Source of the DNA: a virus
IMG/VR virus record: IMGVR_UViG_3300028835_002099
Location: 1-45,538 of that record
Strand: one strand, 5' to 3'
Length of the DNA: 45,538 bases
In this document: in pieces, positions 23,893-43,180 of the stretch
How the letters are laid out: each line of letters opens with the position of its first letter
Position numbering within the stretch: position 1 is the first letter of the stretch
The notes under the pieces: generated by a model
What the model saw: only the letters and a program-made list of their open reading frames with translations
Told to the model about the DNA's origin: nothing
The model's database searches: none
Translations under genes and position numbers: made by a program

Positions 23893-26800
23893 ATGAATCG
23901 AGCTTTATCTTATGCAGCAAAAATGGTGTTGATTTCTGGACTTATCGTCCCCACTGCGTTAATTGGTTTTGCTGGAGGTGCAAAGGCTACAACATTTGAT
24001 TGGGATGGGGGGACTTTTAATGATGTGGCAGTAGGTGATATTCTAACTCCTGCAGTTTTGGTTACTGTAGATGATGTTGTTGGGGTAGGTGATACTTTAA
24101 CTTTTATTAAAACAGCTACCGCAGATGACGTTATTGAGGTAGGTGATATTCTAACTTCTGCAGTTCTGGTTACTATAGATGATATTGTTGTGGTAGGTGA
24201 TATCCTGGAAGATGCAGTTCTGGCTACTACAGATGATGTTGTTGGGGTAGGTGATACTTTAACTTTTATTAAAACAGCTACCGCAGATGACGTTGTTGGA
24301 TTAGGTGATACTCTGAATCCTGCAGTTCTGGCTACTTTAGATGACGTTGTTAATAAAGGTGATACTTTAATTTTTGAAAAAATAGCTACTGCAGATGACG
24401 TTGTTGAGGTAGGTGATATCCTGGAAGATGCAGTTCTGGCTGGTGTAGATGATGTTGTTAATAAAGGTGATGCCCTAAGAACTGGAGAAATAGCCATTGT
24501 AGGTGACGTTGTTGCGTTAGGTCAAATGTTAATTCCTGAAGTTCTGGCTACTGCAAATGACATTATTGAGGTAGGTCAGGTGCTAACTCCTGCAGTTATA
24601 GCTGGTGCAGATGACGTTGTTGCGGAAAATGATCCCTTAAAAACTGGAGAAATAGCTACCATAAATGATGTTGTTGTGGAAGATCAGGTGATAACTCCTG
24701 AAGTTCTGGCTACTATAGATGATGTTGTTGAGGTAGGTGATATCCTGGAAGATGCAGTTATAGCTGGTGCAGATGACGTTGTTGCGGAAGGTGATCCCTT
24801 AAAAACTGGAGAAATAGCTACCATAAATGATGTTGTTGTTTTAGGTCAGTACATGGAGACTGATAGTACAGGAACAGTTATTCTGGCTGGTGTAAATGAC
24901 GTTGTTAATTTAGGTGATCCCCTAACTGACGGAATAGCTGGTGCAGATGACGTTGTTGTGGAAGGTCAGGTGCTAACTCCTGCAGTTATAGCTGGTGAAA
25001 ATGACACTGTTGCGGAAGGTAATATCTTGGAAGATGCAGTTCTGGCTGGTGTAAATGACGTTGTTAATTTAGGTGATCCCCTAACTGACGGAATAGCTGG
25101 TGCAGATGACGTTGTTGTGGAAGGTCAGGTGCTAACTCCTGCAGTTTTGGCTACTGCAGATGACATTGTTGTGGAAGGTGATATACTAATTCCTGCAGTT
25201 TTTGCTGGTGTAGATGACGTTGTTAATTTAGGTGATCCCCTAACTGACGGAATAGCTACTGCAGATGACATTGTTGTGGTAGGTCAGGTGTTAACTCCTG
25301 CAGTTTTGGCTACTGCAGATGATATTATTGAGGTAGGTGATTCTCTAGCTCCTGCAGTTCTGGCTATTTTAGAGGACGTTGTTGTGGAAGGTCAGGTGCT
25401 AACTCCTGCAGTTCTGGCTACTGCAGATGACGTTGTTGTGGAAGGTGATATCCTAACTTACACAGAAACAGCTACCATAAATGACGTTGTTGTGGTTGAT
25501 CAGGTGCTAACTCCTGCAGTTTTGGCTACTGCAAATGATATTATTGAGGTAGGTGATATTTTAACTCCTGCAGTTATAGCTGGTGCAGATGACGTTGTTG
25601 ATTTAGGTCAAATCATGGAAGATGCAATTCTGGCTACTGCAGATGACGTTGTTGATTTAGGTCAAATCATGGAAGATGCAGTTCTGGCTACTGCAGATGA
25701 TGTTGTTGAGGTAGGTGATACCTTAACTACTGGAGAAATAGCTACTGTAGATGACGTTGTTGATTTAGGTGATATCTTGGAAGATGCAGTTCTGGCTACT
25801 GCAGATGACGTTGTTGCGGAAGGTGATATCTTGGAAGATGCAGTTCTGGCTGGTGTAGATGACGTTGTTAAGGTAGGTGATATTTTGGAAGATGCAGTTC
25901 TGGCTACTGTAGATAACGTTGTTGCGGTAGGTGATATCCTGGAAGATGCAGTTCTGGCTACTGCAGATGACGTTGTTAAGGTAGGTGATACCCTAACTTC
26001 TACAAAAATAGCTACCGTAGATGATGTTGTTGTGGAAGGTGATGTCATAACTTCTGCAGTTTTGGCTACCGCAGATGACGTTGTTAATATCAGAGTTAGC
26101 GTTAATGAAAATGAAAATATCCTGGCTTCCTATGAAGATTCTAACGTTGATCTCATCATGGTACAAAATAGCGATAATATTATATTAATAACGATAATTG
26201 ATGATGATGATGGTGGTAAAACACTCAAAACAACTTCTAATGATAAAAACTACGACAGTGTAAAGATTGATAAAGAACATAAAGAATTTGCTAAAAATAC
26301 TGTTGATGCAATTTTTGAAGAGGGCGATATTACAGCCATGATTGCGTTGGGTACGCAATCGTTTGACACATCACTCATTGAAATGACTCCAGATGCAAGC
26401 TCTGGAGCAGCATCTGCAATCGTTGGTTCAAATGCAATTAGTGTAACTATTGGTAGTCGTCAGAATACTGTTGTTGCTAATTATGGTGGTTATGGCTTGG
26501 GTGCATTTTCCATGGCTTCCTCAGATGACAAAGAATCTGGAATGAATTCTGGTGGAGTTCAACAGTCTGGCGGTGTTTGGGTCAAAGCCTTTGGATCAGA
26601 CGCTGAAATGGATATGCGTGATGATATTGCAGGGTATGATGCAGAGGTGCGCGGGGTAACTTTCGGTTTTGATCTTATGGCACAAAAGAATTTTCTAGTC
26701 GGCATTGCTGCAAGTTATGCGGAAGTTGATGTCACTGGAAAAAGTGTCGCAGAGTCACAAACGGATACCGATCAAGTCCAGGCAACTTTGTACAGTACAC

Positions 26801-27387
26801 TGTTTATGGATGATTATTTTGTGAATAACTCCGTTACGATCGCCTCCTCATCTAGCGATACCTCACGTAATACCCTAGGAGGCGGTGTAGCATCTGGTAG
26901 CTACGATACAAGCACTTTTTCCGCTGATATTGGTATTGGTATGCCAATGATCCAAGACGGTTATGCCGTTACCCCCTCGCTCGGTATGTCATATTCACTT
27001 ATCCAACCTGATAGCTATGATGAGATTGGCCCTCTCGCATTGCATGTAGATGTTGAAGATACAGAGTTGTTTAGTATAAATGCTGGCGTAGCCATCAATA
27101 CAAAATTCAAATCAGGTAGTGGTAGTCTCTCACCAGAAATTCGCCTTGGTGCAGATATTGACGTGTTGCAAGAACAGGCAGTTTCTGTAGGGACGTTTTT
27201 GAGTACAGACGGTAGTGTTGGTACATCCCTCGGAGCTAAACCGTCTGCTTTAGGTGGCTCTTTTGGTTTTGGTCTTGATTATGCCAATGATGAAGAAACT
27301 TACGTTATTGGCCTTGATTATGACACTAATGTACGGTCAGATTTTCAGTCCCATGCTCTAAGTCTGAAACTCAAATTGGCTCTTTGA
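23893..27387 (+). CDS. repeat-rich autotransporter outer-membrane protein
   Basis: A 1164-residue protein with a signal peptide (residues 1-~32, ending GAKA), a passenger of 38 complete 18-residue repeats (residues 41-~725, consensus TADDVVEVGDILEDAVLA), a ~150-residue linker and a C-terminal autotransporter beta-barrel (about residues 880-1164; SGGVWVKAFGSDAEMD, then GVTFGFDLMAQKNFLVGIAA, final strand LSLKLKLAL). The barrel should sit in the outer membrane and expose the acidic repeat passenger, probably a beta-solenoid. AAAGGAA precedes the start. Lying between phage structural and replication modules, with its own terminator, it looks like a moron gene. Function is unknown; adhesin or phage exclusion are possible. 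Confidence 0.85.
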   Translation: MNRALSYAAKMVLISGLIVPTALIGFAGGAKATTFDWDGGTFNDVAVGDILTPAVLVTVDDVVGVGDTLTFIKTATADDVIEVGDILTSAVLVTIDDIVVVGDILEDAVLATTDDVVGVGDTLTFIKTATADDVVGLGDTLNPAVLATLDDVVNKGDTLIFEKIATADDVVEVGDILEDAVLAGVDDVVNKGDALRTGEIAIVGDVVALGQMLIPEVLATANDIIEVGQVLTPAVIAGADDVVAENDPLKTGEIATINDVVVEDQVITPEVLATIDDVVEVGDILEDAVIAGADDVVAEGDPLKTGEIATINDVVVLGQYMETDSTGTVILAGVNDVVNLGDPLTDGIAGADDVVVEGQVLTPAVIAGENDTVAEGNILEDAVLAGVNDVVNLGDPLTDGIAGADDVVVEGQVLTPAVLATADDIVVEGDILIPAVFAGVDDVVNLGDPLTDGIATADDIVVVGQVLTPAVLATADDIIEVGDSLAPAVLAILEDVVVEGQVLTPAVLATADDVVVEGDILTYTETATINDVVVVDQVLTPAVLATANDIIEVGDILTPAVIAGADDVVDLGQIMEDAILATADDVVDLGQIMEDAVLATADDVVEVGDTLTTGEIATVDDVVDLGDILEDAVLATADDVVAEGDILEDAVLAGVDDVVKVGDILEDAVLATVDNVVAVGDILEDAVLATADDVVKVGDTLTSTKIATVDDVVVEGDVITSAVLATADDVVNIRVSVNENENILASYEDSNVDLIMVQNSDNIILITIIDDDDGGKTLKTTSNDKNYDSVKIDKEHKEFAKNTVDAIFEEGDITAMIALGTQSFDTSLIEMTPDASSGAASAIVGSNAISVTIGSRQNTVVANYGGYGLGAFSMASSDDKESGMNSGGVQQSGGVWVKAFGSDAEMDMRDDIAGYDAEVRGVTFGFDLMAQKNFLVGIAASYAEVDVTGKSVAESQTDTDQVQATLYSTLFMDDYFVNNSVTIASSSSDTSRNTLGGGVASGSYDTSTFSADIGIGMPMIQDGYAVTPSLGMSYSLIQPDSYDEIGPLALHVDVEDTELFSINAGVAINTKFKSGSGSLSPEIRLGADIDVLQEQAVSVGTFLSTDGSVGTSLGAKPSALGGSFGFGLDYANDEETYVIGLDYDTNVRSDFQSHALSLKLKLAL
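24013..26088 (+). repeat. 54-bp repeats encoding the autotransporter passenger
   Basis: Thirty-eight full units and one partial, mostly 54 bp (18 residues), with conserved DDVV, GD and the AVLA/EIA end. Two types alternate (GDILEDAVLA and GQVLTPAVLA/GDPLTDGIA). Three 17-residue units carry LTDGIA and one unit has a five-residue insertion (DSTGT). Many neighbouring units are nearly identical at DNA level, which points to recent copy-number change by recombination. Confidence 0.92.
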
Positions 27388-27577: not shown

Positions 27578-28921
27578 ATGAAAAAGTCTTTGATTTTAGG
27601 TGCAACAGCAATGGCTGCTCTAGCCATTGCCCCCCAGGCTGAAGCCGCTAAAGTAAAGATTGGTGGACATTACACGATGCGGGTTCAAGATACGGATATA
27701 ACGTTGACAGATACACAGGGTGTTGATGAAGAGCAAGGTTGGTTCCATCGAATGCAGTTGAATCTGGATGCCACAGTCAGCGACAAAACACATGCTCACC
27801 TGCAATTTCGTCCTGTAGATGGTGTTATGGAAGGTGAGAATACAAACGTTAATGGTGGGTGGAACATAAAACGTGTCTGGATGGAAACTGAGATGTATGG
27901 TGTCGGTATCAAAGCTGGTAATATGCCGATGAATATGCATGACAAGATTCTATACAAAGATGTTGGCGGTTCCATGGCTGCTGTTGTTGTCTCCAAATCT
28001 TTTGGTGACATGACCCTTTTGGGTATGAATGTTCGCGTTGAGGAAGGTTACACTTCTGGTGCAAAGGCTTTAAAGGCTTTGGAGGATAAATTTGGCAATA
28101 ATGCTGAAAACGATGGTGCCAATGCTGATAACGATGAGATCAATTTGTACGGTATCAGTCTTTTGGGTAAGGCCGCCAAGGCAAACTATCAGGTGACTTG
28201 GTTTCACAAAGAGATTGATGAAGGTGTTGCCACAAATACCGCTGGTGCAGTTCTCGGTACTGACGTTGACAATGATTGGGCCGCATTTACTCTCGGAACA
28301 AACCTGTCTGGTGTGAAACTGACTGGTACAGTAATCTGGGAAAGTGGTTACAATTTCGACGGTGATACTTTTGCACCAACAGGTACAACTACATTGAATC
28401 AGTTGAATAGTTCTGGTGTTTTGGCCGCTTTGCGTGTTGCTGGTAAAACTGGTTTTGGTGGCTGGAAAGGTTACGGCTTCTACTCCAGTGAAGATTTTAC
28501 TCATCCTTTGAATGAAGACAGCAACTCCAATAGCAAAAACAGCAATGCAACTGGAATGTCTTTGGCATGGGACCAGGGTAACGTCAACGGACGTGACTTG
28601 TTGAAAACTTGGGCTACAAATAGCAATGCTGATCAACTTGAGAATGTTTGGGGTGTTGGTGTTGGTCTTTCTGTGAAAGCTGGTTCTTGGACTATCAGTC
28701 CTGCTATTGATTACGCCTCTATCGTTGAAGATGATGTTAGCGGTGGTGTACAATCTATTTCTGACAGTGCTTGGGGCGGTTCCATCGTAGCTTCCACAAA
28801 GTTGGATGAAGGTACTACTTTCAGCTTGATCGCTATTGGCGTTGATCCTAGTGATGACAGCATAACAGAAAACGTTGAGAACATGCACTCAGTACAAGCT
28901 GAGTTTAAAGTCAAGTTCTAG
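27578..28921 (+). CDS. outer-membrane porin-like beta-barrel protein
   Basis: A 447-residue protein with a typical signal peptide (MKKSLILGATAMAALAIAPQ, cleavage after AEA at about residue 23), a mature N terminus KVKIGGHYTMRV that starts a transmembrane strand, alternating amphipathic strands throughout, and the C-terminal phenylalanine (QAEFKVKF) recognised by the BAM complex. Negative, Asn-rich loops (NSNSKNSNATG) suit a surface barrel of about 16 strands. AAAAGGAAC precedes the start. Host chromosomes and a few temperate phages carry such genes; here it sits between phage modules with terminators on both sides. Substrate cannot be read from the sequence. Confidence 0.85.
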   Translation: MKKSLILGATAMAALAIAPQAEAAKVKIGGHYTMRVQDTDITLTDTQGVDEEQGWFHRMQLNLDATVSDKTHAHLQFRPVDGVMEGENTNVNGGWNIKRVWMETEMYGVGIKAGNMPMNMHDKILYKDVGGSMAAVVVSKSFGDMTLLGMNVRVEEGYTSGAKALKALEDKFGNNAENDGANADNDEINLYGISLLGKAAKANYQVTWFHKEIDEGVATNTAGAVLGTDVDNDWAAFTLGTNLSGVKLTGTVIWESGYNFDGDTFAPTGTTTLNQLNSSGVLAALRVAGKTGFGGWKGYGFYSSEDFTHPLNEDSNSNSKNSNATGMSLAWDQGNVNGRDLLKTWATNSNADQLENVWGVGVGLSVKAGSWTISPAIDYASIVEDDVSGGVQSISDSAWGGSIVASTKLDEGTTFSLIAIGVDPSDDSITENVENMHSVQAEFKVKF

Positions 28922-34619: not shown

Positions 34620-35768
34620 TTATTCAGATTTTTTTGCTTCCTGAAATTCTTGCTCATCTTTACATGCATCCCAGACAGCACAATTTAGGCAATGATTAGT
34701 GCTGTCGTTATCCTGGCCCCATATATATCTCTGTGGACATGAATTCTCTGGGTTCTCTGGGTTCTCTGGTTCATTGAGAGAATCATCATTATTATCGTTA
34801 TTGTCATAATCATCGGTATTATTATTAGTGTCTTCCTCTTCCTCTTCTTCTTCTGGTTTTTTCCGGCTACGCCGTCTGGTTTGCTTGGGTTCTTCTTCTT
34901 CTACCTCTTCTTCTGGTTTTTTCCGGCTACGCCGTCTGGTTCGCTTGGGTTCTTCTTCTTCTACCTCTTCTTCTTCTACCTCTTCTTCTGGTTTTTTCCG
35001 GCTACGCCGTCTGGTTTGCTTGGGTTCCTCTTCCTCTTCTTCTAGGTTTTCTCCAGTTTCAAAAAATAATGCTTTAATTTCTTTATATGAAAGTATGTTA
35101 AGTATTGTGTCGAGATTGGCCACTTCTTCCAGAATTGAGTCTTCATATGGGTCCCGTTTTTCAAAATCAATACGTGATGCTTTTGGGAATTCAAAATTAC
35201 CAATAGATTCATTTTTGAAACGGGTTTTGATAGTCAAGCCGTTTTCAAGATCTGGGTAAACTCCGTGTTCCTCATCTTCCAATAATTCATTATCGAGTAC
35301 TTCCCCGAAACAGAAGTAACTTATGTCCAGAATTTGCACACCATCATCGGGTTTTTCAACGTCAATCACATTGAATATCTGACGCTCAGACGTTTTCGTT
35401 GCTTTGATTTCAGATTCGTTTTTATCATAATCTTTCAACAAAATATTGCGATGTTCGCAAATGGGGCAAGATTCTTTTATAGTTCTCGCAGGACATACAA
35501 TAGTTTTATTTTCAAGACCAACTTGGCCATGTCGGAAGTATGTACGCTCGTACCATAGTTCACCTTTTTTTGCTGAGGGGTTCGTGGATTCCGTCACTTC
35601 ATATGGTATTATATCGAAATATCTCGTGCCTTTTTTTACTTCAATTATAGACATATCATTGGGAAGAGAAAGGGCGGAAGTACCTTTTCTATCGGCAGCT
35701 TTTTCCTTGTTTCTTGCTATGATTTTTAGTTTGAGGGTTTCTCTTAAATTACTTTTTTTTCTTGACAT
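34620..35768 (-). CDS. gp32-like single-stranded DNA-binding protein with charged repeats
   Basis: A 382-residue protein that resembles T4 gp32-type SSBs of phages. Residues 30-210 form the core, with YFDIIPYEVTES, YERTYFRHGQVG, a zinc-site candidate VCPARTIKESCPICEHR (three Cys plus His), and SYFCFGEVLDNE. Residues ~255-320 hold three repeats of QTRRRSRKKPEEE and EEEVEEEE blocks. The C-terminal part is acidic, as in SSBs, then adds an unusual cysteine group CPQRYIWG and HCLNCAVWDAC. Perfect GAGGAG upstream of the ATG implies high expression. It should coat single strands for the helicase and polymerase. Confidence 0.75.
   Translation of the reverse strand: MSRKKSNLRETLKLKIIARNKEKAADRKGTSALSLPNDMSIIEVKKGTRYFDIIPYEVTESTNPSAKKGELWYERTYFRHGQVGLENKTIVCPARTIKESCPICEHRNILLKDYDKNESEIKATKTSERQIFNVIDVEKPDDGVQILDISYFCFGEVLDNELLEDEEHGVYPDLENGLTIKTRFKNESIGNFEFPKASRIDFEKRDPYEDSILEEVANLDTILNILSYKEIKALFFETGENLEEEEEEPKQTRRRSRKKPEEEVEEEEVEEEEPKRTRRRSRKKPEEEVEEEEPKQTRRRSRKKPEEEEEEEDTNNNTDDYDNNDNNDDSLNEPENPENPENSCPQRYIWGQDNDSTNHCLNCAVWDACKDEQEFQEAKKSE
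34849..35030 (-). repeat. 60/75-bp repeats in the SSB-like gene
   Basis: Three almost identical copies of a segment containing TTTTTTCCGGCTACGCCGTC (plus-strand sequence) start 60 and then 75 bp apart, the longer spacing due to an extra copy of a 15-bp TTCTTCTACCTC element. They encode alternating basic (TRRRSRKKP) and acidic (EEEVEEEE) blocks. High identity suggests recent expansion. Confidence 0.9.
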
Positions 35769-37310: not shown

Positions 37311-37505
37311 TTATTTTTTTTGTTTATTCTTGGTATAAGATACAAATTTTCCACACCAATCATTTTTTGCAGCTTCAGGAAACACTGTCTTATGGATGAA
37401 AGTATTGTCTATATTACAATCTATAATAATTACTGGTGGGTTATGACGACATTCACCATTTTTGTGAAAATTCTTACAGTTTTTACATGTATTCTTGTCA
37501 TACAT
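37311..37505 (-). CDS. small cysteine-rich (zinc-binding) protein
   Basis: A 64-residue protein with five cysteines: CKNCKNF, ECRHNPP, IDCNID and WCGKF. The CxxC...CxxxP pattern matches small phage zinc-ribbon proteins often found between replication genes. Its ATG overlaps the polymerase stop (TAATG), so the two are translationally coupled. Function unknown; nucleic acid or protein binding is likely. Confidence 0.6.
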   Translation of the reverse strand: MYDKNTCKNCKNFHKNGECRHNPPVIIIDCNIDNTFIHKTVFPEAAKNDWCGKFVSYTKNKQKK

Positions 37506-38887
37506 TATACAATCTCCAGTTCTTGTTTATCTGCCCAAGAACCATCTATAGGTGTGATTTCGAGTTCTACATCAATTGGAACATTTATCCATCTCCAGTT
37601 CTTTCTGATTTTTTCTGTCATAATTATTTTGCATTGCTTTAACAAAAAATCCTGCTCTTTCGGGACCAAATCAAGGATAATTTCATCGTGTATCTGTCCA
37701 ATAATTAGAGTATCTAAATTATTTTTTTCAATCACCTTTTGAGTTTCAATCAAACTATAAAGGGTACAATGAAAAGCGGTGCCTTGAACTGGATAATTAA
37801 TTGCATCATTTTTGCCCATGACCCCCTGGCAGCGGAATCCAGTCAAAGTGTCGAAAAATCCCTTTTCCTGATATGCAGCCCACCAATCCTCTTTCCACTT
37901 AGTGTATATGGGAAATCGTTCATCCCAAAATGATTCAAAAATAAGTTCTATGTGTGTCTCAAACTGCTCATAATTATCAATCCCACATGATTGCAGCCAT
38001 TGAATTAATGACAAACCATTAGGGAGTATATGGGTTTCCTTTTGTGCGCTTTTCCATAAATTTGGCGCACAGGATTTGAACCAATCCCCGTAAAAACTGG
38101 GGAAAACAAATTGATTTTTACTGCTATGCCGTATTGCTTTGGCTATTTTTGGGTCTGTTTCTTGTATATATCCCCATTCTTCTGGAGTGAACAAATAAAT
38201 TTCCTGTGCCATGTCCCTATGTAAATCGGTGGATGGGTCTGAGTTGTATTTCATCATGGTCGGGTCTTTGTGGTAGGCCGTACCAATCTTTACCTCAATA
38301 CCTGAAAAATCGAGTGCAGCTATTTTTCTGCCTGGACGGGCAATAATTGCTCTTCGACAAAGTTCCTTTATTTCGGGGTCTCTGTTTGGAATATTTTGGA
38401 TATTAGGTTCGGATGATGAACTCCTGAATGTTCGCACTAAATGCAGATGAAAAAACGGGTGCATGTAGTTATCAACAGATTCATCAATGAAATTTTGCAA
38501 GTATGTGTTTTTGGCTTTGACTAGTTGTTTGCTTCTTATCAGAAGATCAAGGCCAGGGATATCAAGTTCGGCCAAGGCTTCTGCTTTTACAGAATCGTTG
38601 CCCTTTTTGGTTTTGAATGAAGTAGCTAGACCCATTACATCATATAAAATATGTGATAGTTGCTTGTCACTGTTTATATTCAGTTTAAAACCAAATGCTT
38701 TTCGTCCAACTTCTCCCAGTTCAGAATCTAGTATTTGCTTTTGCATCCGTGCTACACGCCTATCTAAATGGCGAATTGCCTTGTGGCAATAATCTATGTC
38801 TACATGGACACCGTTTCGTTCCATTTGAGCCAGAACAAGGCCGGAATCGTGCATCAACTGATACGCTTCTTCAGTGATTGGTCTCAT
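37505..38887 (-). CDS. DNA polymerase I-like (family A), polymerase domain only
   Basis: A 460-residue family A DNA polymerase lacking its own exonuclease domain. Motif A is KIAALDFSGIEVK at about 186-198, with the catalytic Asp; motif B is RHSSKNQFVFPSFYGDW at about 250-266 (the usual R...K...YG), and motif C is GQIHDEI at about 394-400. The preceding LVRTFRSSSSEPNIQNIPNR matches the RLSS-PNLQNIP region. The 3'-5' exonuclease is encoded by the upstream gene, which it overlaps by four bases (ATGA), so both chains are probably made together and form one enzyme. This is the likely replicative polymerase. Confidence 0.88.
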   Translation of the reverse strand: MRPITEEAYQLMHDSGLVLAQMERNGVHVDIDYCHKAIRHLDRRVARMQKQILDSELGEVGRKAFGFKLNINSDKQLSHILYDVMGLATSFKTKKGNDSVKAEALAELDIPGLDLLIRSKQLVKAKNTYLQNFIDESVDNYMHPFFHLHLVRTFRSSSSEPNIQNIPNRDPEIKELCRRAIIARPGRKIAALDFSGIEVKIGTAYHKDPTMMKYNSDPSTDLHRDMAQEIYLFTPEEWGYIQETDPKIAKAIRHSSKNQFVFPSFYGDWFKSCAPNLWKSAQKETHILPNGLSLIQWLQSCGIDNYEQFETHIELIFESFWDERFPIYTKWKEDWWAAYQEKGFFDTLTGFRCQGVMGKNDAINYPVQGTAFHCTLYSLIETQKVIEKNNLDTLIIGQIHDEIILDLVPKEQDFLLKQCKIIMTEKIRKNWRWINVPIDVELEITPIDGSWADKQELEIV

Positions 38888-40134
38888 TGGTAAATACCCT
38901 GTTTTAACAAAGGCATTTGAATTTCTGACAAGCCAAACTGATAAAGTGCATCCAATCCATTGTACATAAGCAAATCTTGTGAAGGGGCCTCACGTACCCT
39001 GTTTATTGAATTTGAGTTGCCTGTACTTTCCAAATATTCCTTCATATGGGTTGCATAATCTACCACACCAAAATGAACGTACACCTGAAATTTCAATCCA
39101 GTAATTCCCATACGATTATCCAAAATATGGGCTGCAATCATAGAATCCCATTCCCATCCTTGCATTTGTGTTCTATATCTAATTTTTGCCCAATTATCTT
39201 CAAATTTCATATTGTGCGCTCTTTTGGGTATTTTTGAATTAGAAAATATCTGTCTGAGCATTTTTGTAGCTGGACCCCTTTGGGGCATGGGAAAAGATAT
39301 TGCTCGTTTTGTACTTGTGGATATAGCACATGAAATTATTTCATGTCCTGGTGCATGGGGTTTTAATCCAGTTGTTTCAAAGTCAAAAGCAAATGGTTCC
39401 TCTTTGATTTTTTTGAGTTCAGAAAGCAGATGGTCTGGGTTCAAAATAATTTCAACTGCTTTTTCTTCGTTCTTCATTGTAGGAAAAGGTGCTTCGGAGC
39501 GGGACAAAGCCCTTTTTAAATCTTGGTCGAAAATAATACCAACAACAGGGGCGTATATTTCTGAACGTTCACTCCTTTTGCCACTGGCCATACTTTTTAT
39601 GACGTATGAAGGGTGAAAGAGAGGGGCAACCCAGGCTTGAGTTTTCCTATCTGGAATAACCCACCCTCTCCATTTGTTGATGCCTCCTGACTTTTCTGCC
39701 CATCGGTCACCTATGAAAGATTCCACGGCAGCATTGCCCAAGAGAAAAATTGTTTCAGGTTTAAAACTGTCAATTTCTTTCCAAATATTTGGACGGCACA
39801 TTGCTATTTCGTTGCTTGTTGGAGTTCGGCCATTTGGTGTTCGGCAACTAACGGCTGCAATTTTTTTGCAATCTTGCTCGATGCTGATTCCATGAGACCG
39901 TAATTTATGCCTAAGCCAGTCAGAAGCAGAACCACGCATTAATTTTCCGGTTAAATCTTCTTCTTGACAGGGGATTTCAGAAATAATTAATATTCCTTTT
40001 TCACCTTTTCCAGTAGATTTTATGGCAGGTGTTATGCACTCTTCACGGAGGCCACATGCACCACACCCAATCAAGCGTTGAATTTTATGGCCATGTCCTA
40101 CTTCTTCTTTGTTGAAAAATCCGGTAGTAATCAT
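38884..40134 (-). CDS. uracil-DNA glycosylase (family 4-like) fused to 3'-5' exonuclease
   Basis: A 416-residue two-domain protein. Residues ~20-210 resemble family 4 UDG: cysteines 24, 27, 97 and 113 (CGAC, SCRTP, AMCRP) fit the four 4Fe-4S ligands, Glu53 stands in the ISEIP motif (GExPG in relatives), and HPS starts at 174. Residues ~240-416 are a DnaQ/PolA-type proofreading exonuclease: FDFETTGL, HNMKFED, YNGLDALYQ (ExoI, II and III). The next gene is the polymerase domain. ATG 40134 overlaps the clamp gene stop (TAATG); an upstream TTG is less likely. The fusion would let the polymerase complex remove or detect uracil. Confidence 0.82.
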   Translation of the reverse strand: MITTGFFNKEEVGHGHKIQRLIGCGACGLREECITPAIKSTGKGEKGILIISEIPCQEEDLTGKLMRGSASDWLRHKLRSHGISIEQDCKKIAAVSCRTPNGRTPTSNEIAMCRPNIWKEIDSFKPETIFLLGNAAVESFIGDRWAEKSGGINKWRGWVIPDRKTQAWVAPLFHPSYVIKSMASGKRSERSEIYAPVVGIIFDQDLKRALSRSEAPFPTMKNEEKAVEIILNPDHLLSELKKIKEEPFAFDFETTGLKPHAPGHEIISCAISTSTKRAISFPMPQRGPATKMLRQIFSNSKIPKRAHNMKFEDNWAKIRYRTQMQGWEWDSMIAAHILDNRMGITGLKFQVYVHFGVVDYATHMKEYLESTGNSNSINRVREAPSQDLLMYNGLDALYQFGLSEIQMPLLKQGIYQ

Positions 40135-41141
40135 TATGTGAAACAAACAAATACATGCACGAATTCTCCGTCATCACCTTCAAATCTTAATTGATTTTTG
40201 CTGATTTCCATTACGTTGCATAGTTCAATTATTTGGGCTAAATATTCAGGGTGGACCTTAATGTTTTTAGATTCTCCTTTATAATTAATTGAACAGTTCT
40301 CTTCAAAATAACCGAAATTACCTTTAGATTTGACAATGAATTTTCCGTTTCCAATTGTAAGAGATATACGGGGGTTGTTGAAATTACCGTTGTCGATAAG
40401 GGCGTTTGCTCTTTTTATTACATTGTTCAGCTTTTTTGGTAAATCAACTTGTTCCCCTTCAACATCAATGATTCTTTGAATATTAGGGAAAGTCATACTT
40501 ATGTAAGTACGACAACTAAAGACCACTTCATTTTCTGTTTTGAAATGTAGCCAACCTGGAGAGGTTGAATATTCCACCACGTCAAATGTGACTAGCGATT
40601 TTGCAGCAACATGTGGAATCAAAATTGGTTTGGAGAAGCATTTGTCATCATCAAGGTATCGAATAGTCATTCTAAAACTGTCGGAGCTTTCAACACGGCC
40701 TTGATGGACGTGTATGCATGTTAGGGCTGGTTTTGTCTGGTCTTTAGAGCAACTGAATAAGCAAAACTTAATAGCCGTTGTGAAGTCGTATGGAAGCGCA
40801 TTGAAGTGTCCAGTTTCTTGTTTGACAGGCAATGTAATTTCTAGAATAATTTTAATCTTTGCTCTATAATTCCCTCCTTTCACCAACAAAAAATTATCTT
40901 TCTGTGTGACTTTTATTTCTTCTTCTTCAATTTTCTCCAAAAAGTTCAACAGCTGTTTGGCAGGAACTGCTCCATTTATTTCAATTTTAAATGGATGAGA
41001 TATGGCTATTTCATCGTTGTAGGAGTAAATAATATTTTTTTGAAAAACAAAACAATCTGATTGCAACACAATTGCTTTTGGGGCAATTCCATGTCGTAGC
41101 ATATGAAGTACATCTAACAGAGCTTTTGTGTTGATGAACAT
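40134..41141 (-). CDS. DNA polymerase sliding clamp (DnaN-like)
   Basis: A 335-residue protein with the length and pattern of a beta clamp: INTKALLDVLHMLRHGIAPK at the start, GAVPAKQLLNFLEKI, then in the second domain KPALTCIHVHQGRVESSDSF (the R-E/D-S-D/N-x-x-R pattern common in clamps), and SMTFPNIQRIIDV before the third domain. It would tether the polymerase. Three-domain organisation is inferred from length. ATG 41141 is chosen because GAAAGGT precedes it and the upstream extension is hydrophobic and unlike a clamp. It is coupled to the UDG-exonuclease gene by TAATG. Confidence 0.78.
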   Translation of the reverse strand: MFINTKALLDVLHMLRHGIAPKAIVLQSDCFVFQKNIIYSYNDEIAISHPFKIEINGAVPAKQLLNFLEKIEEEEIKVTQKDNFLLVKGGNYRAKIKIILEITLPVKQETGHFNALPYDFTTAIKFCLFSCSKDQTKPALTCIHVHQGRVESSDSFRMTIRYLDDDKCFSKPILIPHVAAKSLVTFDVVEYSTSPGWLHFKTENEVVFSCRTYISMTFPNIQRIIDVEGEQVDLPKKLNNVIKRANALIDNGNFNNPRISLTIGNGKFIVKSKGNFGYFEENCSINYKGESKNIKVHPEYLAQIIELCNVMEISKNQLRFEGDDGEFVHVFVCFT

Positions 41142-41163: not shown

Positions 41164-41655
41164 TTATTTACGGACGTATTGTACAGTAGGACGAAAATGC
41201 ACTCCACCAACATGGACTGATTCAGCTGTTACAGTAATTTGGAAAGGGTCGAGTAGATTAATTAGATCGTTACTGATAATGGTTATGCAAGTGTCATGGG
41301 TTGCCATGTATTTACAGAAGGTTTTCAGATATTCACTAAGAGATTTTTCTGACACACAATAATGTCGGGGTAGGTAGTTAATGTGGAGTAGTGCATAATT
41401 TATATCTGCATCACCAGGGTAAATGTTGGAGAATTCAGGGTATTTAATTTGAACTTCTCCGGAAACCACATTTCGGTTTATCACTTTATTCACGAATGGG
41501 GAATCATATTTTTTGAGTAATAAGTAACTCGGTGTTACGTATATTGGGGTTACTTCTTTTTCTGGTGGTAATTTAATTTTTGAATTATTTTCTGGTGGGT
41601 CTTCTAGTTCAACAGGTTCGCAATTATTTTCTGAAGGTTGGGTTTTGTCTGGCAT
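41164..41655 (-). CDS. QueF-like T-fold protein lacking the catalytic cysteine
   Basis: A 163-residue protein that aligns with type I QueF (preQ0 reductase, the last step before preQ1): PEFSNIYP for PEFTSLCP, ALLHINYLP for ATIYISYIP, EKSLSEYL for ESKSLKLYL, and ISNDLINLLDP for IMNDLIELMDP. The nucleophilic Cys of QueF is replaced by Tyr79, and the Glu of the HE pair is Asp121 (THDTC). The lysines of the NADPH motif are partly lost. So it probably cannot act as a nitrile reductase. It follows directly a QueC-like gene. The fold call is good; the function is open (amidating, binding or structural). Confidence 0.68.
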   Translation of the reverse strand: MPDKTQPSENNCEPVELEDPPENNSKIKLPPEKEVTPIYVTPSYLLLKKYDSPFVNKVINRNVVSGEVQIKYPEFSNIYPGDADINYALLHINYLPRHYCVSEKSLSEYLKTFCKYMATHDTCITIISNDLINLLDPFQITVTAESVHVGGVHFRPTVQYVRK

Positions 41656-41673: not shown

Positions 41674-42252
41674 TTAATCGTAAGTAATTGGGTCACTTTC
41701 AATTCTTTCCTCGAACAAATTAATACGTTCCATGCATTGCAAACAATTTCCACAAGCATAATTCAGTGAAGAAGAACAAGAACGTATTTTTTCAAAAGGA
41801 ATTTTAAGATTAATACCATTTTCTAATATGTCTTTTTTCTTTTTTCTAATGTATGGAGCATATAATTTCATTTCTTCTTCAAATGCAAATTTCATTGAGA
41901 GGTTCATGGAAGAAATTAGAGCCTTTGCACAATTCTGTGTTCCAATCGCAATAGTATCAAATTCACCTGATTCAGCAATTCCTGCAAGAATTGAAACAAA
42001 GAGCAAATTTTTTAAATTATCGTTTCGGATTTTTACCGGCATTTGAAACTCAGCCATTGGAGAGGCAATGTCAATCAGAGTAATAGGAACATCATAATGT
42101 TTGGCTATATTAATGGCCGCTGTGTTTTCTTTATCATTTGATGTTGATTTATATGAAAATGCAATTGTAGCTACATTAAAATTAATATTGAGCAGGTGAG
42201 CCAACAATGTAGTGCTAGCAATACCTCCTGATAATGCAAGTAGAACATTCAT
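41674..42252 (-). CDS. QueC-like PP-loop ATPase with altered active site
   Basis: A 192-residue protein related to QueC, which makes 7-cyano-7-deazaguanine (preQ0). N-terminal LLALSGGIASTTLL is the PP-loop, with Ala12 in place of the invariant Asp of SGGxDS. The zinc site is kept: Cys159, 167, 170 and 173 (SCSSSLNYACGNCLQC). The substrate motif YPDCR of QueC is absent; the equivalent region reads GTQNCAKALISS. AGAGGAAC precedes the ATG. It is shorter than typical QueC (about 220-230). With the adjacent QueF-like gene it suggests 7-deazaguanine-related chemistry, but a standard QueC reaction is doubtful. Confidence 0.7.
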   Translation of the reverse strand: MNVLLALSGGIASTTLLAHLLNINFNVATIAFSYKSTSNDKENTAAINIAKHYDVPITLIDIASPMAEFQMPVKIRNDNLKNLLFVSILAGIAESGEFDTIAIGTQNCAKALISSMNLSMKFAFEEEMKLYAPYIRKKKKDILENGINLKIPFEKIRSCSSSLNYACGNCLQCMERINLFEERIESDPITYD

Positions 42253-42263
42253 AAAAGTTCCTC

Positions 42264-43142
42264 TTATTCTGGGAAAGACATAATCTTTGTGTCAGGGTCA
42301 GTTATTGCAAGTTTTTCATATTTTGTTCGCGCTTTGTTTTTGGAATTGCTAATAATGGCTAAGGTGCCTGACAAAGCAAACATACTGTATTCTTTTTCAA
42401 TAATAAGGGCAATTTGTGTGTTGGTGTGTTTGTTTTCTTGAATCAACTGTTTAATTCGATTAATACGTTCTTTGTTGGGCCTTTGTGTTTTCTTGGATTT
42501 TTTAGACTTCTTTTGTACTTTTTTTTGAGTTTCTTTTTCCTCTATTGGGGGTTGATTCTTTATGATGACGGGTTTCATTTTTTTTTGATTTTGCTGAATA
42601 GTTTCAGCAAGAGATTCTAAACGCTCATCGGTTAAGAGGTGATTGACAAGACCATTTTCTTCCAGGTAAGTCCAAGATTGATCGTCAAACATCGTTATTT
42701 CTTCTTCAAACAATTCCCTGGCCCGTTCGCGAATATCTAAAAACATCAATTTTTTATCTGGTTGAATTGGGATAAGATCATCGTCTGGTGATTCATATAA
42801 GATTTTATTGATGGTCTCTGCAACATGAGTAATAATGCACTCGGGAATTTTGATGAGTTCTTCCTCAATTACTTGTGTGTCACTCACTTCAGTGATTTTT
42901 ATTTTGTTTGGTTCTTTTTTTGGGGGATAGATGTGGACAAGAAATCCTCCTTCTTTCAATAGTTCCCATGTCTTCTCACTAAGTACTTCCGCATCCTCTT
43001 CAAAAATGTCTTTTGCACCTGTTGTCAATTCTTTTTTTAAGTTTTTTGCTTTAATGTTTATTGCAGGTGCGAAATCAATTGCTTTATTGATTTCATTTAT
43101 CATGGAAAGAAGGACACGTTTGTTGAATTTATTGTGAGACAT
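42264..43142 (-). CDS. hypothetical protein with internal duplication and basic C-terminal region
   Basis: A 292-residue protein I cannot assign. Two halves resemble each other: around residues 20-75 (AKDIFEEDAEVLSEKTWELL, KEGGFLVHIYPP) and 135-180 (ARELFEEEITMFDDQSWTYL, EENGLVNHLL), suggesting a duplicated ~50-residue domain. Residues ~205-235 are very basic (KKVQKKSKKSKKTQRPNKER), and 230-265 could form a helix-turn-helix (INRIKQLIQENKHTNTQIAL). ATG 43142 is chosen since TAGGAG lies six bases upstream. It heads the sub-operon containing the QueC/QueF-like and polymerase genes, behind a promoter with palindromes. DNA binding is likely. Confidence 0.6.
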   Translation of the reverse strand: MSHNKFNKRVLLSMINEINKAIDFAPAINIKAKNLKKELTTGAKDIFEEDAEVLSEKTWELLKEGGFLVHIYPPKKEPNKIKITEVSDTQVIEEELIKIPECIITHVAETINKILYESPDDDLIPIQPDKKLMFLDIRERARELFEEEITMFDDQSWTYLEENGLVNHLLTDERLESLAETIQQNQKKMKPVIIKNQPPIEEKETQKKVQKKSKKSKKTQRPNKERINRIKQLIQENKHTNTQIALIIEKEYSMFALSGTLAIISNSKNKARTKYEKLAITDPDTKIMSFPE

Positions 43143-43180
43143 GAAAACTCCTAGTTTCAATTAAGGGATAAGATTAATTT

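Follow-up and report, generated by a model that had tools for sequence, protein, structure and literature searches.

A homologue of QueF that has exchanged all four residues by which this enzyme family is defined lies next to an altered QueC homologue in the replication operon of a virus (IMG/VR record IMGVR_UViG_3300028835_002099, of which positions 1 to 45,538 form the window analyzed here). The two proteins are probably co-opted pseudoenzymes that stem from a 7-deazaguanine DNA-modification cassette and are kept for a non-catalytic or differently acting role. The QueF-derived gene (41655..41164, minus strand) opens with an ATG start codon and has a GGAG ribosome site ~9 nt upstream. Its product of 163 amino acids matches the Pfam profile of QueF (PF14489; E = 1.2e-14), scores 63 bits against TIGR03139 (QueF-II; curated cut-off of 86.9) and aligns over residues 53-160 with Bacillus subtilis QueF (4f8b/4fgc; phmmer E = 4e-14). 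These matches bear out the original prediction of a QueF homologue in a replication operon, adjoining an altered QueC-like gene. In the AlphaFold2 (AF2) model the core reaches a pLDDT above 90, and Foldseek pairs the model with QueF 4fgc (E = 1.7e-12; TMt 0.73-0.76), which corresponds to the T-fold of QueF that the prediction presupposed; note that canonical QueFs formed the input alignment and that the model leans to that fold. PF01227 (GTP_cyclohydroI) matches neither this protein nor anything else in the window contig or in the near-identical contig described below.

Table 1. Positions in the window of the QueF- and QueC-derived genes, the replaced catalytic codons and the neighboring genes.
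Feature	Position	Strand	Basis
Family A DNA polymerase (PolA)	37505..38887	-	Pfam DNA_pol_A, E = 5e-46
Uracil-DNA-glycosylase-like and 3'-5' exonuclease protein (UDG/exo)	38884..40146	-	Pfam UDG, DNA_pol_A_exo1
DNA polymerase sliding clamp DnaN, one boundary of the slot	40134..41141	-	PHROG 947, E = 5e-33
QueF-derived protein, 163 aa, T-fold core ~45-162	41164..41655	-	Pfam QueF; AF2/Foldseek
Asp121 codon GAC, at substrate anchor Glu97	41293..41295	-	Glu in 80/80 relatives; CATGAC read directly
Ser102 codon, at Glu78 of the QueF motif	41350..41352	-	Glu in 80/80 relatives
Asn86 codon AAT, at general acid Asp62	41398..41400	-	Asp in 80/80 relatives
Tyr79 codon TAC, at thioimide Cys55	41419..41421	-	Alignments; Cys in 80/80 relatives
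QueC-derived protein, 192 aa	41674..42252	-	Pfam QueC, E = 2.3e-22; motif table; AF2/Foldseek
298-aa acidic/Lys-rich protein flanking the slot	42264..43160	-	Similar C-terminus in L015, L018 and L100

Specialists define QueF through Cys55, Asp62 and Glu97 in combination with a motif that contains Glu78 (PMC5372742). In the window protein, Tyr, Asn, Asp and Ser, respectively, have taken the places of these residues. Tyr79 at the position of the thioimide Cys and HD instead of HE (HE97 corresponds to His120-Asp121) had already been noticed from the DNA alone, and the alignments agree on both; the extent of the loss was nevertheless underestimated, as the replacements of Asp62, Glu78, Lys83 and the Arg of PRGG had been missed. 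The QueF motif ESKSLK has become SEKSLS, in which Ser102 and Ser107 stand for Glu78 and Lys83 while Lys80 and Ser81 are kept, and it departs from the E(S/L)K(S/A)hK pattern associated with NADPH binding. Val149 replaces the invariant Arg of PRGG. For comparison, an E97Q mutant of B. subtilis QueF has just 2% of its activity left (PMC5372742), and the QueF-Like archaeosine synthase needs both the thioimide Cys and the Asp (PMC5485725). Because the nucleophile, the general acid, the Glu anchor and the cofactor motif are all gone, thioimide chemistry is very unlikely (PMC5372742, PMC5485725), and judged by these residues its absence is almost certain. The protein is thus very unlikely to act as a preQ0 reductase or as an archaeosine synthase, in line with the earlier doubt about a known QueF or QueF-Like mechanism.

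Each of Cys55, Asp62, Glu78 and Glu97 is 100% conserved in the 80 phage QueFs that were gathered. Across the columns with at least 90% conservation (n = 44), every canonical member retains at least 86%, and the window protein retains 19. The homologue search confined Tyr to the lineage of the window, i.e., the window itself and a near-twin contig. In a degenerate DNA motif scan with TTN, TCN or TAN for the Cys codon, the Cys version of which recovers 65 of the 80 canonical loci, this near-twin was the sole match in IMG/VR, and the four matches among ~85,000 prokaryote genomes (GTDB) were chance matches with no QueF among them. A slightly stricter scan of IMG/VR alone for codons starting with A, C or G yielded none. 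Searches of IMG/VR with individual proteins of the window matched the near-twin alone. GenBank contributed 13 phage records with a match at E ≤ 0.01, and the Cys was present in all eight that were inspected. The consulted literature describes QueF and QueF-Like as retaining the thioimide Cys and includes the change of chemistry in QueF-Like but no case of lost thioimide residues; note that a published QueF survey drops sequences without the thioimide Cys (PMC5372742).

The near-twin (IMG/VR contig 3300009488_000025; L002/G001) encodes the identical protein, letter for letter. For this region, the main alignment spans 10.7 kb at 99.8% identity, whereas identity is ~95-97% around an autotransporter gene. 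Because a second, slightly different contig carries the same protein, the replaced Cys is not the error of one assembly, and the local error that might have undone the original prediction is excluded. That the Cys codon was misread or misassembled was accordingly rejected as practically impossible, the more so as several independent motif positions have changed and not a single codon. The QueF- and QueC-derived genes show zero differences between both contigs, which represent only one lineage and hence allow no dN/dS estimate. The contigs do differ at 34830-35060 of the window, where a gp32-like ssDNA-binding protein contains a length-variable acidic repeat (EEEVEEEEPKRTRRRSRKKP). The twin also shares, at 94.8-96.6% identity, the region with a repetitive autotransporter-like protein of 1164 amino acids (23893-27387; Pfam beta-domain, E = 4e-39) and, at 27578-28921, a protein of 447 amino acids that begins like a signal peptide and matches no Pfam profile. 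The window contig is incomplete: its left end holds a portal gene, and no terminase was recognized. A search by exact pattern for an extension of this end gave no match, and genes for FolE, DpdA, QueD or QueE could lie beyond the contig. The portal protein (345-2435) carries, as a fusion, a domain of the inorganic pyrophosphatase type (PF18823; E = 5e-36). At the right end of the near-twin (L117 ~2130-2251, G001) lies a perfect 13-bp tandem repeat, GGATGAAATTTAT, which is probably where assembly stopped.

The remark that the neighboring QueC-like gene (42252..41674) is altered as well could be confirmed, as it has lost substrate-binding residues. The PP-loop SGGxDS reads SGGIAS without the Asp, the His of YxQxHxxE is lost, and the Tyr and Asp of YPDC (YxDC), which recognize CDG, are absent (for the motif roles, see PMC13329287 and PMC13279940). 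Moreover, depending on how the sequences are aligned, at most the RN of VPxRN remains, and a Ser replaces the conserved Tyr that follows the first zinc Cys. The loss affects 11 of 25 conserved columns. The four zinc Cys (C159, C167, C170 and C173), invariant in alignment A3, are retained, and the best Foldseek structures for the AF2 model are Cap9 (9nto) and QueC (3bl5).

Relatives were gathered via the polymerase and via the UDG/exo protein, the latter of which gave 80 relatives. In L015, L018 and L100, the gene order is 298-aa-type protein, QueC, FolE, QueF, DpdA, DnaN, UDG/exo and PolA, with canonical QueC and QueF; L014 has the same order, traced from QueC to DnaN only, and equally canonical QueC and QueF. 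The window pair occupies the place of this cassette, between the 298-aa-type protein, the orthologue of which adjoins QueC in the relatives, and DnaN, which is 31-37% identical to its orthologues in the nearest relatives. FolE and DpdA are absent from the order at this slot, which holds only the two altered proteins. A DpdA gene accompanies QueC or QueF in 22 out of 22 other loci of the UDG/exo clade (counted by eye; some loci share a contig). With HMMs from the relatives, no DpdA, FolE, QueD or QueE was detected in the incomplete 45.5-kb window contig or in the 1.8 kb by which the twin extends it, and tblastn likewise found no DpdA in either. The gene content of this incomplete contig therefore gives no support to a direct DNA-modification activity, which the original prediction had considered. 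The Pfam TGT profile (PF01702) was discarded as a DpdA test and is unsuited for claiming DpdA absence, being so insensitive that it has no match in eight phage records with a DpdA by tblastn.

Among clade phages without the cassette, L122 has a C5 cytosine methyltransferase in or near the slot, L118 and L111 have an N6/N4 methyltransferase-like gene (in L111 assigned from reading the sequence), and L104 has neither. The slot is therefore a DNA-modification site. More generally, modules for DNA modification are exchanged between the 298-aa-type gene and DnaN across a large phage clade (L099-L195), the interval holding 7-deazaguanine cassettes, a C5 methyltransferase, N6/N4 methyltransferase-like genes or none. 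Two further observations concern these cassettes. FolE, a preQ0-pathway gene, appears to be interrupted in L015 (1135-2547) and L018 (4556-5956) by an intein-like insert of ~270 amino acids that starts after ...YSHC and ends with ...ANGMAVHN ahead of CEHH. One cassette (L109, 1465-6601) comprises a longer QueC with an N-terminal region resembling glutamine amidotransferase, two DpdA genes and no QueF.

When trees were built for the same set of phages, the terminal branch of the window QueF measured 2.39 changes per site compared to 0.20-0.31 in L014, L015 and L018, and that of QueC 2.37 compared to 0.26-0.46. The pair has evolved 5-10 times faster than in its nearest relatives, while the replication genes have not: DnaN, UDG/exo, PolA and the clamp loader of the window phage show ordinary end branches. 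That fast evolution is limited to exactly these two genes, that the losses hit the most conserved residues and that FolE and DpdA are missing at the slot are all what one would expect of a decaying relic, in which the leftover pair drifts without function after the loss of both partners. Strict neutrality, on the other hand, predicts several stops. If neutral drift had altered conserved residues to the extent seen (57%), ~6 stops would be expected in QueF (probability of none, 0.0013), and both frames stayed open in none of 1500 simulations, in which the 57% of QueF was applied to QueC as well; a fairer 43% for QueC gives a probability of 0.0047. Yet both frames are intact and carry ribosome sites. 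Stops could also be disfavored through polarity on DnaN in this tightly packed operon rather than through a need for the proteins, and a relic may have remained uninterrupted in this way.

With stops forbidden in the simulations, the hydrophobic core of QueC is far better kept than under neutrality (0.91 versus 0.74 ± 0.06; 0 out of 400 simulations as high), and its zinc Cys all persist. For QueF, a core at least as well kept combined with polar invariants at least as strongly lost occurred in 2 of 400 simulations; core conservation by itself is modest (43 of 400) and would fit a relic, as would the HMM scores, which fall in the upper tail of the neutral simulations (15/160 and 16/160) in a comparison that is not decisive. 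Given intact frames and conserved cores in both genes, the two products most likely persist as non-catalytic or differently acting proteins. The data favor proteins kept for their fold after the old chemistry was lost; slow decay, rather unlikely on balance, is the main rival.

A new enzyme activity is an improbable alternative. The pair would then perform a different reaction on a 7-deazaguanine or another base (e.g., decarboxylation, hydrolysis or conjugation); the host would supply the precursor, and the transglycosylase gene would lie in the part of the genome that the contig lacks. The modification genes found at this slot in sister phages (the 7-deazaguanine cassette, the C5 methyltransferase of L122 or the methyltransferase-like gene of L118) are consistent with such a role, as is the predicted retention of both folds. 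The pocket region of the QueF-derived protein still has Asp121, His120, Lys104, Ser105 and Cys123, and Cap9 and, according to a proposal, QatC use a repurposed QueC scaffold to deazaguanylate proteins (PMC13329287, PMC13279940). Against it count the missing DpdA, FolE, QueD and QueE in the 45.5 kb and the 1.8-kb extension, although DpdA adjoins the slot in relatives, and a QueC-like protein devoid of the CDG-recognizing Tyr and Asp and of the SGGxDS Asp, the last of which QatC keeps. A working QueF that employs Cys123, Cys100 or Cys114 as its nucleophile, as the original prediction suggested to examine, is far less probable. Cys123 aligns with Cys99 of B. subtilis QueF, which is near enough to Cys55 for a disulfide, but this conserved resolving Cys is not catalytic in that enzyme, and its Ala and Ser mutants are still active (PMC5372742). 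The closest relatives that have Cys55 show Cys100 as an ordinary residue (WCVESK), and Asp62, Glu78, Glu97, Lys83 and the PRGG Arg have been lost together.

Under co-option, the reading that we prefer, an ancestral phage would have carried a QueC-FolE-QueF-DpdA cassette flanked by the clamp gene and the gene of the 298-aa-type protein. FolE and DpdA may then have been dropped from the slot in this lineage, after which the leftover QueC and QueF lost catalytic and substrate-recognition residues but retained their folds, gene loss presumably preceding residue loss. The present QueF-derived protein would have no means to form or protonate a thioimide or to accommodate preQ0 and NADPH as QueF does; we infer the lack of QueF activity as well as the co-option itself. 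As a guess, it might be a T-fold oligomer that possibly still binds a purine-like molecule or another protein, for example its QueC-derived neighbor, and the pair might act in the replication or DNA-modification module of the phage. It is unlikely that both proteins, derived from two enzymes of the 7-deazaguanine pathway, form a new phage system in this slot with neither of the known chemistries, which modifies DNA or protein or counters host nucleases or 7-deazaguanine-based defense.

An intact, folded QueF-derived protein alongside a gutted QueC offers a natural test case for how a DNA-modification pathway is dismantled and its components are put to new use, and QueC scaffolds are already known as repurposed in anti-phage defense. 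For annotators, a PF14489 match, even one above the Pfam cut-off, does not equal dPreQ1 in the phage DNA. Cellulophaga phage phiST was considered as a phage that might supply a T-fold CDG decarboxylase (DpdL), but no link was made, as scans of four unassigned proteins near its QueD, QueE and FolE genes gave no match to QueF.

Compared to type I QueF, the NADPH-dependent 7-cyano-7-deazaguanine reductase (B. subtilis 4f8b/4fgc; TIGR03139, PF14489), the window protein shares the T-fold and 30% identity over ~110 alignable residues. It retains Lys80, Ser81, His96, Cys99 and the GG turn but is replaced at Cys55, Asp62, Glu78, Lys83, Glu97 and the PRGG Arg, and FolE and DpdA are missing at its slot. 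With the phage QueC-FolE-QueF-DpdA cassettes of L015 and L018, the window has the gene order and flanks in common, and its QueF is 31-38% identical to those of L014, L015 and L018. The latter are nonetheless canonical at every catalytic residue and accompanied by FolE and DpdA, neither of which applies to the window. Related cassette QueFs also occur in Pseudanabaena phage Pan1, Dinoroseobacter phage R26L and Streptococcus phage Dp-1, the DNA of which carries dPreQ1 (PMC6884629). The QueF-Like archaeosine synthase of P. calidifontis (5jyx) resembles the window protein in its T-fold (Foldseek E ~6e-7), yet it needs a Cys (Cys21) and an Asp, and the window protein is without both. No CD-NTase was recognized among the genes scanned, nor any 7-deazaguanine pathway partner gene in the window. 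Finally, relative to QueC, Cap9 and QatC (PF06508), the QueC-derived protein has lost the SGGxDS Asp and the YPDC Tyr and Asp, but it shares with them a Rossmann-like fold and the four zinc Cys, Cap9 being its best solved structure.
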